From Bacteroidota bacterium (lineage in GTDB: Bacteria; Bacteroidota; Bacteroidia; Chitinophagales; UBA10324), in contig BJGQ01000038.1 of NCBI GenBank assembly GCA_014190575.1, positions 1 through 33,710 of the forward strand: a DNA stretch of 33,710 nucleotides, given 5' to 3'. Shown here piece after piece: positions 5,811 through 20,002 of the stretch (positions within the stretch are counted from its first letter, which is position 1; the number at the start of each line of letters is the position of its first letter). The notes beneath the pieces were generated by a model. That model was not told the origin of the DNA. It saw only the letters and a program-made list of their open reading frames with translations, and searched no databases. Position numbers and translations under genes: made by a program.

Positions 5811-5840
5811 TTGGAAAAGTGAACTGAGCATTTACATTTG
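5811..5840 (+). promoter_or_regulatory. Promoter of the rplM-rpsI-rpsB-tsf operon (TTG-N19-TACATTTG)
   Basis: TTG at 5811-5813 and TACATTTG at 5833-5840 are separated by 19 bases, an exact match to the Bacteroidota promoter consensus TTG-N17-23-TAnnTTTG used by the phylum's primary sigma factor. Transcription would begin near 5845-5850, leaving a leader of about 15-20 bases before the GTG start of rplM at 5865. The TTG at the end of the box (5838) is open in the rplM frame and can be mistaken for its start codon. Confidence 0.8.
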
Positions 5841-5864
5841 CCGTCCCTTAAAAAAAGAAGAAAA

Positions 5865-6305
5865 GTGGATACGCTTAGTTACAGAACCAAACACGCCAAT
5901 TCGGCAACAGTAAAACGCGAGTGGCATCTGGTAGATGCTGAAGACAAAGTTCTTGGTCGGCTCGCCTCAAAAATTGCCATGATTCTCATGGGCAAAAACA
6001 AACCATCATACACCGCGCACTGCGATACCGGTGACTTTGTAATTGTGCTTAATGCCGGCAAAGTAAAACTGACCGGTAAAAAGATGGACACCAAGGAAGT
6101 GATTCACCACACGGGTTACCCCGGTGGTCAGCGGTCAGAAATTGCGCGCGATTTATTAGAGCGTATTCCTGAGCGCATGATTGAAAATGCGGTGAAGGAT
6201 ATGCTCCCTCACACCAAACTTGGAAACGCCATGTTCAAAAAGCTGTTTGTTTACGGCGGCAGCGAACATCCTCATAAAGCTCAACAACCAAAAACCATCA
6301 AATAA
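5865..6305 (+). CDS. rplM: Large ribosomal subunit protein uL13
   Basis: A 146-aa ribosomal protein of the 50S subunit with the full family pattern: [36 protein letters not shown], the HTGYPGG motif, and the HPHKAQQP tail. The frame stays open upstream to a TTG at 5838, but that TTG is part of the -7 promoter box and would lie upstream of the transcript start. The GTG at 5865, preceded by a purine-rich AAAAAAAGAAGAAAA, gives [12 protein letters not shown], which matches the N-terminus common in the phylum. It is followed by rpsI after six bases. Confidence 0.95.
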
Positions 6306-17552: not shown

Positions 17553-18677
17553 TCAATAAGTTATTAATTGTTGTTCGGTTTCAACCGGCAATTCCCTGAA
17601 GTCATATTGCTGAGTGCGCAACTGGGGAATAAATCCGGCGGAGCGAATACTTTCCTGAATTCCGTTTGATGTAAATCGATGAGGAGCTCCGGCCACACTC
17701 ACTACATTTTCTTCAATCATTATGGAACCGAAATCATTTGCGCCTGCATGCAAGCAAAGTTGTGCTACTTCTTTTCCAACGGTTAACCAACTCGCTTGTA
17801 TGTTTTTAATATTCGGCAACATGATTCTGCTCATCGCAATCATGCGGATATACTCATCACCTGTAACATGATTTTTTACTCCACGAACACGGCTGAGCAA
17901 TGTTCCTTCATCCATAAATGGCCATGGTATAAATGCTAAGAATCCCTTAGCATCTTTTGGTTTTTCTGATTGCACTTGCCGCAGCCAACTCAAATGCTCG
18001 AATCGCTCATATACAGTTTCAACATGACCGAACATCATGGTTGCCGATGTGGTAAGATTTAATTGGTGTGCGGCGCGCATTACATCCAACCATTCCTGTC
18101 CACCACATTTTCCTTTTGAAATTAAACGGCGAACTCTGTCGTTTAAAATTTCTGCTCCGGCTCCCGGCAATGAATCCAAACCGGCAGCAATTAATTTTTT
18201 CAGTACTTCAGTATGCGTGCTTCCTTCCAGTTTTGTAATGTGTGCAATTTCTGGTGGCCCGAGCGAATGCAATTTCAAATTCGGATAAAGCGATTTCAGT
18301 TGCCTGAATAAATCAACATAAAAACTTAACCCCAAATCGGGATGATGACCTCCCTGCAATAACAATTGTTCACCACCTAACCGAAATGTTTCTTCTATCT
18401 TTTGTTTGTATTGTTCAATGGTGGTGATGTATGCTTCGTTGTGACCGGGCCTGCGATAAAAATTACAGAATTTGCAATTTGCAATACACACATTAGTCGT
18501 ATTCACATTGCGGTCAATAATCCAGGTTACAATTTTTTCAGGTTTCTGTTTGAAGCGCAATTCATTTCCGATAAACATTAACTCAGCGGTGGGGGCATTT
18601 TCAAAAAGAAAAATTCCTTCTTCAATTGAGAGCCAATCGAAGTTGAGCGCTTTTTTATATAAATCTTTCAATTGCAT
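17553..18677 (-). CDS. mqnC: Cyclic dehypoxanthine futalosine synthase (MqnC)
   Basis: A radical SAM enzyme of the futalosine route to menaquinone that cyclises dehypoxanthine futalosine. The cluster-binding motif is C64-IAN-C68-KF-C71 in a CxxxCxxC arrangement, followed by FYRRPGH. LGGEQLLLQGGHHPDLGL and LDSLPGAGAEIL are characteristic of MqnC and separate it from the related MqnE. Start chosen at ATG 18677 (374 aa): the frame extends three codons further to a TTG at 18684-18686, but that TTG is the end of a perfect -7 promoter box. Other menaquinone genes are not in the window. Its presence implies menaquinone synthesis through futalosine, not the MenFDHCEB pathway. Confidence 0.95.
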   Translation of the reverse strand: MQLKDLYKKALNFDWLSIEEGIFLFENAPTAELMFIGNELRFKQKPEKIVTWIIDRNVNTTNVCIANCKFCNFYRRPGHNEAYITTIEQYKQKIEETFRLGGEQLLLQGGHHPDLGLSFYVDLFRQLKSLYPNLKLHSLGPPEIAHITKLEGSTHTEVLKKLIAAGLDSLPGAGAEILNDRVRRLISKGKCGGQEWLDVMRAAHQLNLTTSATMMFGHVETVYERFEHLSWLRQVQSEKPKDAKGFLAFIPWPFMDEGTLLSRVRGVKNHVTGDEYIRMIAMSRIMLPNIKNIQASWLTVGKEVAQLCLHAGANDFGSIMIEENVVSVAGAPHRFTSNGIQESIRSAGFIPQLRTQQYDFRELPVETEQQLITY

Positions 18678-18683
18678 CGGAAG

Positions 18684-18709
18684 CAAAAATAGGAGTTGGC
18701 AGTTTGCAA
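18684..18709 (-). promoter_or_regulatory. Promoter of mqnC (-7 box TATTTTTG)
   Basis: On the minus strand 18691-18684 reads TATTTTTG, a perfect TAnnTTTG. A TTG (plus-strand CAA at 18707-18709) lies 15 bases upstream, shorter than the usual 17-23. The box ends six bases before the ATG, so the transcript would be leaderless or nearly so. Confidence 0.6.
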
Positions 18710-18753
18710 ATTACAGTTAAGAGTATCTTTCTGAAAACTTAATTCCGAAATCC

Positions 18754-18761
18754 TATTTTCG
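18754..18761 (+). promoter_or_regulatory. Probable promoter of the M16 peptidase gene (TATTTTCG)
   Basis: TATTTTCG matches TAnnTTTG in seven of eight positions and ends five bases before the ATG at 18767. CTG at 18731-18733 is a possible -33 element at 20-base spacing. Transcription would begin at or just before the start codon. Confidence 0.45.
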
Positions 18762-18766
18762 CCGCA

Positions 18767-20002
18767 ATGATTCACTACGAGAAATTTACTTTGGATAATG
18801 GAATGCGCGTGTTGGTTCACCGCGATACAACGACACTGCTTGCCGCTTTTAATTTATTATACAATGTTGGCGCGCGTGATGAGACAGAAGATAAAACCGG
18901 ATTCGCACATTTGTTTGAACACTTAATGTTTGGTGGTTCTAAAAACATTCCGTCGTTTGATGAGCCGCTGCAACGCGCCGGTGGCGAGAACAATGCATTT
19001 ACCAGTAACGACATCACCAATTATTACGAAACTCTTCCGGCACATAATTTAGAAACTGCTTTTTGGTTAGAGAGTGATAGAATGCTGGAATTGGATTTTG
19101 AAGGTCGAGCATTGGAAGTGCAACGAAAAGTGGTGAGTGAAGAATTCAAAGAGCACTACATTAATCAACCTTATGGTGATGTGTGGCACAAGTTGCGCAC
19201 CCTTGCTTACACCACTCACACCTATAGGTGGCCAACAATCGGCAAAGAACTTTCTCATATTGAAAATGCAACCATTGACGATGTAAAAAATTTCTTTTTC
19301 AAAAATTATCGCCCGAATAATGCAATTCTTGTAGTTGCCGGAAATGTGGAAGTGAGTGAAGTAAAAAGATTGGCTGAAAAATATTTTGGAAACATTCCAT
19401 CCAATCCTACAATAGAAAAAGATATTCCTGCTGAACCAAAACAAACTGAAGAACGAAAACTGGAAGTAAGAGCTGATGTACCGTTGGATGCATTGTATAA
19501 AGTTTATCACATGCCGGGGCGATTGGATAAAAGATATTATCCGGTTGATTTGCTGAGTGATATTTTATCTGCTGGAAAATCATCGCGATTGTATCAAAGT
19601 CTGGTGAAAGAAAAAAAATTATTCAGCGAAATAAGCGCCTACATCACCGGAAGCATTGACCCCGGATTATTTGTGTTTGAAGGAAAATTAGTAAAGGGAG
19701 TGAAGATGGAAGATGCCGAAGCGGCAATGCAGCAAGAAATAAATCACCTGATGGAAAACGGTGTGGATGATACTGAATTAGAGAAAGTAAAAAATCGAGT
19801 AGAATCGCAAATTGAATTTGCAGAAATGGAAGTGTTACACAAAGCAATGAGCCTGGCTTATGCCGAATTGTTAGGCGATGCTGATTTGGTGAACACCGAA
19901 AAAAGTTTGTACCAGAAAGTTACAGCTGCTGAAATTCAAGCCGAAGCGAAAAACATTTTGCAAAAAGAAAACTGTTCAACACTTTATTACTACGCGAATT
20001 AA
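18767..20002 (+). CDS. M16-family zinc peptidase, catalytic subunit
   Basis: A 411-aa pitrilysin-type (M16B) peptidase. The inverted zinc motif HxxEH is intact: His48, Glu51 and His52 in GFAHLFEHLMFGG, with the downstream Glu ligand in the VVSEEFKEH segment near 122-130. RYYPVDLLSDILSAGKSSRLYQSL marks the second half. No signal peptide is visible, so it is cytosolic unless exported by another route. M16B enzymes often work as a catalytic plus non-catalytic pair; the matching partner lies at 24402-25682, separated by two cargo genes. It diverges from mqnC; the 89 bases between the two start codons hold both promoters. Confidence 0.93.
   Translation: MIHYEKFTLDNGMRVLVHRDTTTLLAAFNLLYNVGARDETEDKTGFAHLFEHLMFGGSKNIPSFDEPLQRAGGENNAFTSNDITNYYETLPAHNLETAFWLESDRMLELDFEGRALEVQRKVVSEEFKEHYINQPYGDVWHKLRTLAYTTHTYRWPTIGKELSHIENATIDDVKNFFFKNYRPNNAILVVAGNVEVSEVKRLAEKYFGNIPSNPTIEKDIPAEPKQTEERKLEVRADVPLDALYKVYHMPGRLDKRYYPVDLLSDILSAGKSSRLYQSLVKEKKLFSEISAYITGSIDPGLFVFEGKLVKGVKMEDAEAAMQQEINHLMENGVDDTELEKVKNRVESQIEFAEMEVLHKAMSLAYAELLGDADLVNTEKSLYQKVTAAEIQAEAKNILQKENCSTLYYYAN

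Follow-up and report, generated by a model that had tools for sequence, protein, structure and literature searches.

Two codons compete as the start of mqnC, a gene of the menaquinone pathway, in the stretch of Bacteroidota DNA analysed here (33,710 nucleotides, referred to as the window), and the question is whether the upstream one, a TTG, is a start codon at all or rather the end of a promoter element. The longest open reading frame of the gene, positions 17553–18686 on the minus strand, begins with this TTG and encodes 377 aa, and an ATG follows at 18677–18675. Read along the minus strand the sequence runs CTCC, TATTTTTG, CTTCCG, ATG and then CAATTGAAAG / CAATTGAAAGATTTA. The first-pass annotation had described the TTG as the end of a perfect -7 box with the ATG six bases downstream, and both positions are exact, the box being found at 18691–18684 and separated from the ATG by six bases. 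The product translated from the ATG scores 429.3 bits against TIGR03699 (MqnC), the cut-off being 428.1. We consider it very probable that TATTTTTG is a housekeeping-type -7 element of mqnC giving a leaderless or near-leaderless mRNA, with the TTG outside the transcript, on its upstream side, and therefore untranslated (Table 1).

Table 1. Features of the mqnC and rplM regions, with positions in the window
Feature	Position	Strand	Sequence or basis
Putative -7 promoter element of mqnC	18684..18691	-	TATTTTTG; exact TAnnTTTG, 5–6 nt before ATG in 6/6 genus genomes
In-frame TTG, apparent mimic of a start codon	18684..18686	-	last three bases of the TATTTTTG box
Predicted transcription start of mqnC, leader 1–2 nt	18678..18679	-	published box-to-start spacing
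mqnC, cyclic dehypoxanthinyl futalosine synthase, 374 aa, ATG start	17553..18677	-	TIGR03699 MqnC
TTTG, weak -33 candidate (about -31 to -28)	18707..18710	-	sequence position
M16 (pitrilysin-type) peptidase gene	18767..20002	+	divergent from mqnC across 89 bp; below curated cut-offs of named subfamilies
One-letter box variant 5 nt before the M16 peptidase ATG	18754..18761	+	TATTTTCG
rplM box	5833..5840	+	TACATTTG; TTG 5838 in frame with the GTG start 5865
rplM (L13) from GTG start	5865..6305	+	TIGR01066, 180.8 bits for the longer frame

The promoter region of mqnC

The -7 element of F. johnsoniae is reported as TAHHTTTG with 4–5 nt from box to transcript start (PMC6847099), and for F. psychrophilum the box is given at -12 to -5 (PMC9723704). 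With a spacing of 4–5 nt the first nucleotide of the mqnC transcript would be 18679 (2 nt ahead of the AUG) or 18678 (1 nt ahead); the earlier proposal that transcription begins at about the ATG agrees with this published spacing. The mqnC box resembles the promoters of the Bacteroidota primary sigma factor (sigma-ABfr) in being an exact match to the consensus TAnnTTTG/TAHHTTTG with T at both free positions, in that the motif is avoided elsewhere in the window and in that the distance between box and ATG fits the published transcript start. It differs in that the TTTG upstream of mqnC lies a few nt nearer than -33, in that the transcript start is here a predicted one and in the position of the box, 6 nt from the ATG compared with 16–26 nt for the larger group of boxes in its own genome. 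The -33 element is described as much less evident in F. johnsoniae (PMC6847099), and the -33 region of 42 mqnC loci with a close box (see below) revealed no clear motif.

The window contains 12 occurrences of TAnnTTTG, whereas 100 dinucleotide shuffles average 44.06 (sd 6.25), a 3.7-fold avoidance which looks as if selection acted against spurious promoters. Five of the 12 precede a gene start on their own strand by at most 60 nt, out of 28 starts chosen by the authors from the list of open reading frames, with rplM set to GTG and mqnC to ATG. The mqnC box is the sole minus-strand TAnnTTTG between 14372 and 20965, the latter being the position of the next one upstream.

The neighbouring M16 peptidase gene is divergent and 89 bp away, and mqnC therefore needs a promoter of its own. 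The one-letter variant TATTTTCG is found 5–6 nt before the ATG of the peptidase gene in all five genus genomes that carry it (L084–L087, L089), and for this reason both genes of the divergent pair look leaderless, as judged from these spacings; in the sixth genus genome the peptidase gene was not found at the locus. A strict box at 4–6 nt precedes the M16 gene in L032, L034, L076 and L080, four of the 36 rows listed.

It could also be that the box is a promoter but a minor or inactive one, and that the main mqnC transcript comes from further upstream with an ordinary leader. Such an arrangement would be in line with the reports that most transcripts in the studied Bacteroidota have leaders (PMC6847099, PMC9723704, PMC7366714), a pattern search would miss promoters that deviate from the strict consensus, and the -33 element of the mqnC box is poor. 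However, only 89 bp are available up to the divergent gene, no second minus-strand TAnnTTTG appears before 20965 and the position of the box recurs against drifted flanks, and we regard an upstream start as unlikely.

In the preferred reading, with TATTTTTG as the -7 element, the primary sigma factor would recognise the mqnC box, as consensus and recurrence suggest, RNA polymerase would start at one of the two predicted positions and the ribosome would take up the near-terminal AUG of the mRNA directly, while the TTG upstream of the transcript would not be translated. The TTG resembles a start codon only through the last three letters of the promoter consensus, which here happen to fall in frame. 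Between the box and the ATG no Shine-Dalgarno-like sequence was found; Bacteroidota ribosomes are reported not to recognise such sequences (PMC9976891). The layout in this genome is sufficiently explained by constitutive expression in compact form from the short region between two divergent genes, and leaderless initiation may also serve to regulate mqnC.

The start codon of mqnC

Box and ATG are kept in all six genomes of the genus, with a distance of 6 nt in four of them and 5 nt in two, and the residues LYKKA (6–10) keep their distance to the ATG throughout. In the two genomes with 5 nt, L087 and L088, the TTG is out of frame. Since these genomes keep both box and ATG, the comparison argues that the TTG is not a start codon and that the ATG is the start of mqnC, as the first-pass annotation had proposed when it assigned the TTG to the -7 box. 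The start site of the gene is corrected accordingly in Table 1.

That the TTG at 18686–18684 is nevertheless the genuine start, with the box likeness due to chance and the protein three residues longer, appears very improbable. In its favour, the longest mqnC frame opens with this codon, and annotated genes of the phylum do include TTG starts, 10 among the 353 CDS of a sample of RefSeq plasmid records from Spirosoma, Persicobacter and Flammeovirga (three Cytophagales genera). On the other hand a TTG conserved in frame, the mark of a gene starting with TTG, was not found in these loci: besides being lost from the frame in two of the six genus genomes it shares the frame of the gene in no more than 13 of the 42 loci with a close box, namely at distances 3 and 6, the third that would be expected in the absence of constraint (p 0.87 against one third). 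Moreover, in L032, L034 and L037, which group with Pedobacter on the protein tree, the box ends in A with the ATG in the same place, so that there is no TTG at all, and a TTG start would lie upstream of its own predicted transcript.

Recurrence of the layout among mqnC loci

The comparison comprised 80 named loci collected by protein similarity (the best 80 of 594 confirmed), 30 from the genome itself and its relatives and the first locus of the genome itself, in total 111, from which one without an in-frame ATG near the start and four identical copies were removed, leaving 106 mqnC loci. The nearest named relatives by MqnC, among the best 80 of the 594 confirmed loci, are Chitinophagales-type metagenome bins, so that an assignment to this order would be tentative. 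A strict TAnnTTTG 3–7 nt before the ATG was found in 42 of the 106, where composition predicts 0.3% per locus. The distance between box and ATG is 3 nt in 6 of these loci, 4 nt in 16 (the mode), 5 nt in 10, 6 nt in 7 and 7 nt in 3, so that 6 of the 42 have only 3 nt, less than the published 4–5. Among the 64 loci without the layout the box is located at 8–12 nt in 6 and at 13–60 nt in 34, and 24 have none.

Because presence of the box was the criterion by which the 42 loci were selected, its own identity is no evidence, and the flanks and the free positions were analysed instead. The 45 nt upstream of the box show a mean identity of 29.5% (27.2% when shuffled) and 88% of the pairs fall below 40%, which indicates that the position of the box has been kept while the flank has mostly drifted. 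At 45% identity the 45-nt flanks form 24 clusters, the largest with 10 members, and recent kinship thus explains a part but not most of the recurrence. At the free positions of the box G occurs in 0 of 84 cases in the 42 loci, the signature of TAHHTTTG (p 7e-7 if the loci are independent).

On a quick protein tree with 105 rows, 31 of the 36 members of a mostly Sphingobacteriaceae clade (Pedobacter, Mucilaginibacter, Sphingobacterium) carry the layout, and three of the five exceptions show TAnnTTTA in the same place with the same ATG. The layout label changes 9 times on this tree compared with 33.3 times in shuffles, none of 500 being as low, a clustering to which near-copies among the rows contribute. 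The layout thereby recurs in many relatives, and what appears to be conserved with it, a point that the first-pass annotation had not noticed, is a leaderless-type promoter of mqnC, leaderless being the state that the spacing predicts.

Distances between box and start codon in other genes

In a sample of 2.26 Mb (the 80 named loci, 40 stretches of the genome itself and the window, with mqnC excluded) TAHHTTTG was found 3–7 nt upstream of 47 of 1606 ATG codons, counted up to and including the first ATG of a gene, and of 15 of 1945 GTG, TTG, CTG and ATC codons together (p 1e-6, kinship ignored). At 15–35 nt, too, boxes are more frequent before ATG (128 of 1606) than before the other codons (63 of 1945), as true starts would give; this weakens the 3–7 nt comparison and makes the peak at 4 nt the better evidence. 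Exactly 4 nt upstream the box is present at 20 of the 1606 ATG and at 3 of the 1945 other codons (p 6e-5, kinship ignored), by codon 20 ATG, 1 GTG, 0 TTG, 0 CTG and 2 ATC. Five permuted motifs used as distance controls, with mqnC included, gave no peak at 4 nt. Without mqnC there are 55 boxes 3–7 nt before an ATG-started reading frame compared with a mean of 4.4 per distance at 9–80 nt, though some of the 55 have the appearance of fortuitous sites within genes. A whole-genome count of TANNTTTGN{3,7}ATG gave 226 matches and the reversed control 324, a comparison that is uninformative alone, given the avoidance of the box within genes and a pattern blind to reading frames.

In a sample of the genome itself the distances from box to first ATG are bimodal, with 17 at 4–7 nt, 10 at 8–15 nt and 52 at 16–26 nt. 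The simplest reading of these distances would be two classes of transcript, one leaderless and the other, more numerous, with leaders of about 12–22 nt. In the annotated Cytophagales plasmids the box is found at 3–7 nt in one gene of 353.

Mycobacterial leaderless transcripts likewise have a promoter element adjoining the start codon, as in mqnC; the consensus differs and such transcripts are common there but a minority here. Reported figures for the Bacteroidota are a leaderless share of 5.5% in F. psychrophilum (PMC9723704), 3.7% of 5' UTRs shorter than 10 nt in B. thetaiotaomicron (PMC7366714) and 13% with leaders of at most 10 nt in F. johnsoniae (PMC6847099). Like these leaderless mRNAs mqnC has an AUG start (ATG in all six genus genomes), a predicted leader of 1–2 nt and no Shine-Dalgarno-like sequence. 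It is unlike them in that transcript mapping revealed them, in a minority of genes, while mqnC is predicted from sequence, and in that its layout is predicted to be kept across a clade of family rank and in a separate genus. Leaderless mRNAs are already known in the phylum and mqnC would add a recurrent case. In the literature searched, with most subscription journals outside its scope, nothing was found that treats mqnC as leaderless.

Comparison with other gene families

Among the 36 loci of the clade 21 gene families were present in at least six genomes, the starts being taken as the first or second ATG of the frame. A box 3–7 nt before the start was found in 29 of 34 mqnC genes compared with 20 of 260 members of the other 20 families together. 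These are distributed over a PdxH-like family (7/7), a nucleotidyltransferase-like family (5/7), a ScpB-like family (5/18), the M16 peptidase (2/13) and one further family (1/7), and the remaining 15 families have none; the names PdxH-like, nucleotidyltransferase-like and ScpB-like are what we take these families to be from their sequences. Boxes at 8–60 nt were seen in only 22 of the 260, and 8 of the 15 families lacking a close box are without one anywhere in the 60 nt, like genes internal to operons. With so few boxes upstream, many of these members are probably not the first gene of their transcript. Among other genes having a box the leaderless distance is not rare, and it is clearly concentrated in few families.

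The PdxH-like gene is situated near mqnC in the Mucilaginibacter-type loci L036, L040, L042, L047, L051, L058 and L078, and all seven have the close box. In six of the seven listed it reads TAAGTTTG, with G at a free position, against the TAHHTTTG rule.

Other genes of the futalosine pathway were considered as leaderless partners and rejected. In sets of 30 loci listed for each gene from 60 relatives, the genomes differing between the sets, a box 3–7 nt before the nearest ATG was found for mqnE in 1 of 30, for mqnD in 3 of 30 and for mqnC in 10 of 30, where the starts of mqnE are less certain as many of its alignments begin at residue 10 or later. Within the genus the close box was found in 0 of 5 mqnE, 0 of 5 mqnD and 6 of 6 mqnC.

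A wider proposal would be that a small stable set of genes (mqnC, the PdxH-like and the nucleotidyltransferase-like gene) has been kept leaderless for the depth of a family, in Sphingobacteriaceae and some relatives, because leaderless initiation regulates them, the ribosomes of this phylum making no use of Shine-Dalgarno sequences; taken as a whole we find this rather doubtful. With a layout recurring across a family-level clade, mqnC offers a sequence-defined test case for leader-free initiation by Bacteroidota ribosomes.

TTG codons, boxes and annotation

The first-pass annotation had further suggested that boxes ending in TTG mimic start codons and lead to a systematic misannotation in the phylum. 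In a sample of the genome itself (833.7 kb, 656 non-overlapping open reading frames of at least 100 codons) 16 of the 137 longest frames beginning with TTG (11.7%) end a TAnnTTTG box with that codon, compared with 46 of 4526 internal TTG (1.0%), an odds ratio of 12.9 (p 1e-11), while about 6 are expected when the upstream 60 nt are shuffled. The 16 frames, only some of which were compared with homologues, make up 2.4% of the 656. Among TTG codons located out of frame in the 60 nt preceding the first ATG or GTG, 78 of 648 (12.0%) close a box, a like proportion, which argues that the frame is incidental. In the plasmid sample 3 of 58 TTG-first longest frames end a box.

The mimicry thus holds when the longest frame is read but was not seen in annotation, where 0 of the 10 annotated TTG starts among the 353 plasmid CDS end a box (upper 95% bound 31%) and, of five plasmid genes with an open in-frame box TTG 21–66 nt upstream, none is annotated there (upper 95% bound 52%). 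The enrichment of TAnnTTTG over annotated TTG starts that had been expected was consequently not observed in this small sample, and the broad claim of misannotation, on these plasmid records from another order, is not supported so far. That annotation pipelines are systematically misled by such boxes would be compatible with TATTTTTG being the promoter of mqnC, and the reading of longest frames is indeed misled in the genome itself and in the plasmid sample, but the RefSeq plasmid records have avoided the error in both respects and we think it improbable. Within the same limit, most subscription journals lying outside, no literature was found on Bacteroidetes start codons misannotated through a TTTG promoter.

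The rplM box

The gene rplM had been named as the same kind of case and this is borne out, its box TTG at 5838 being in frame with the start GTG at 5865, which lies 24 nt after the box. Four of the same-genus loci have the box in frame; in the remaining one, L253, it is out of frame at a distance of 26 nt. The aligned start is GTG in 23 of 28 loci (L250–L277), with two TTG, two ATG and one unclear. From the 24-nt spacing a normal leader of about 20 nt is expected for rplM, which would accordingly not be leaderless. In 18 of the 28 rplM loci TT[TC]G is followed after 2–5 nt by CCC, at about the predicted beginning of the transcript (5841–5867 on the plus strand in the window).
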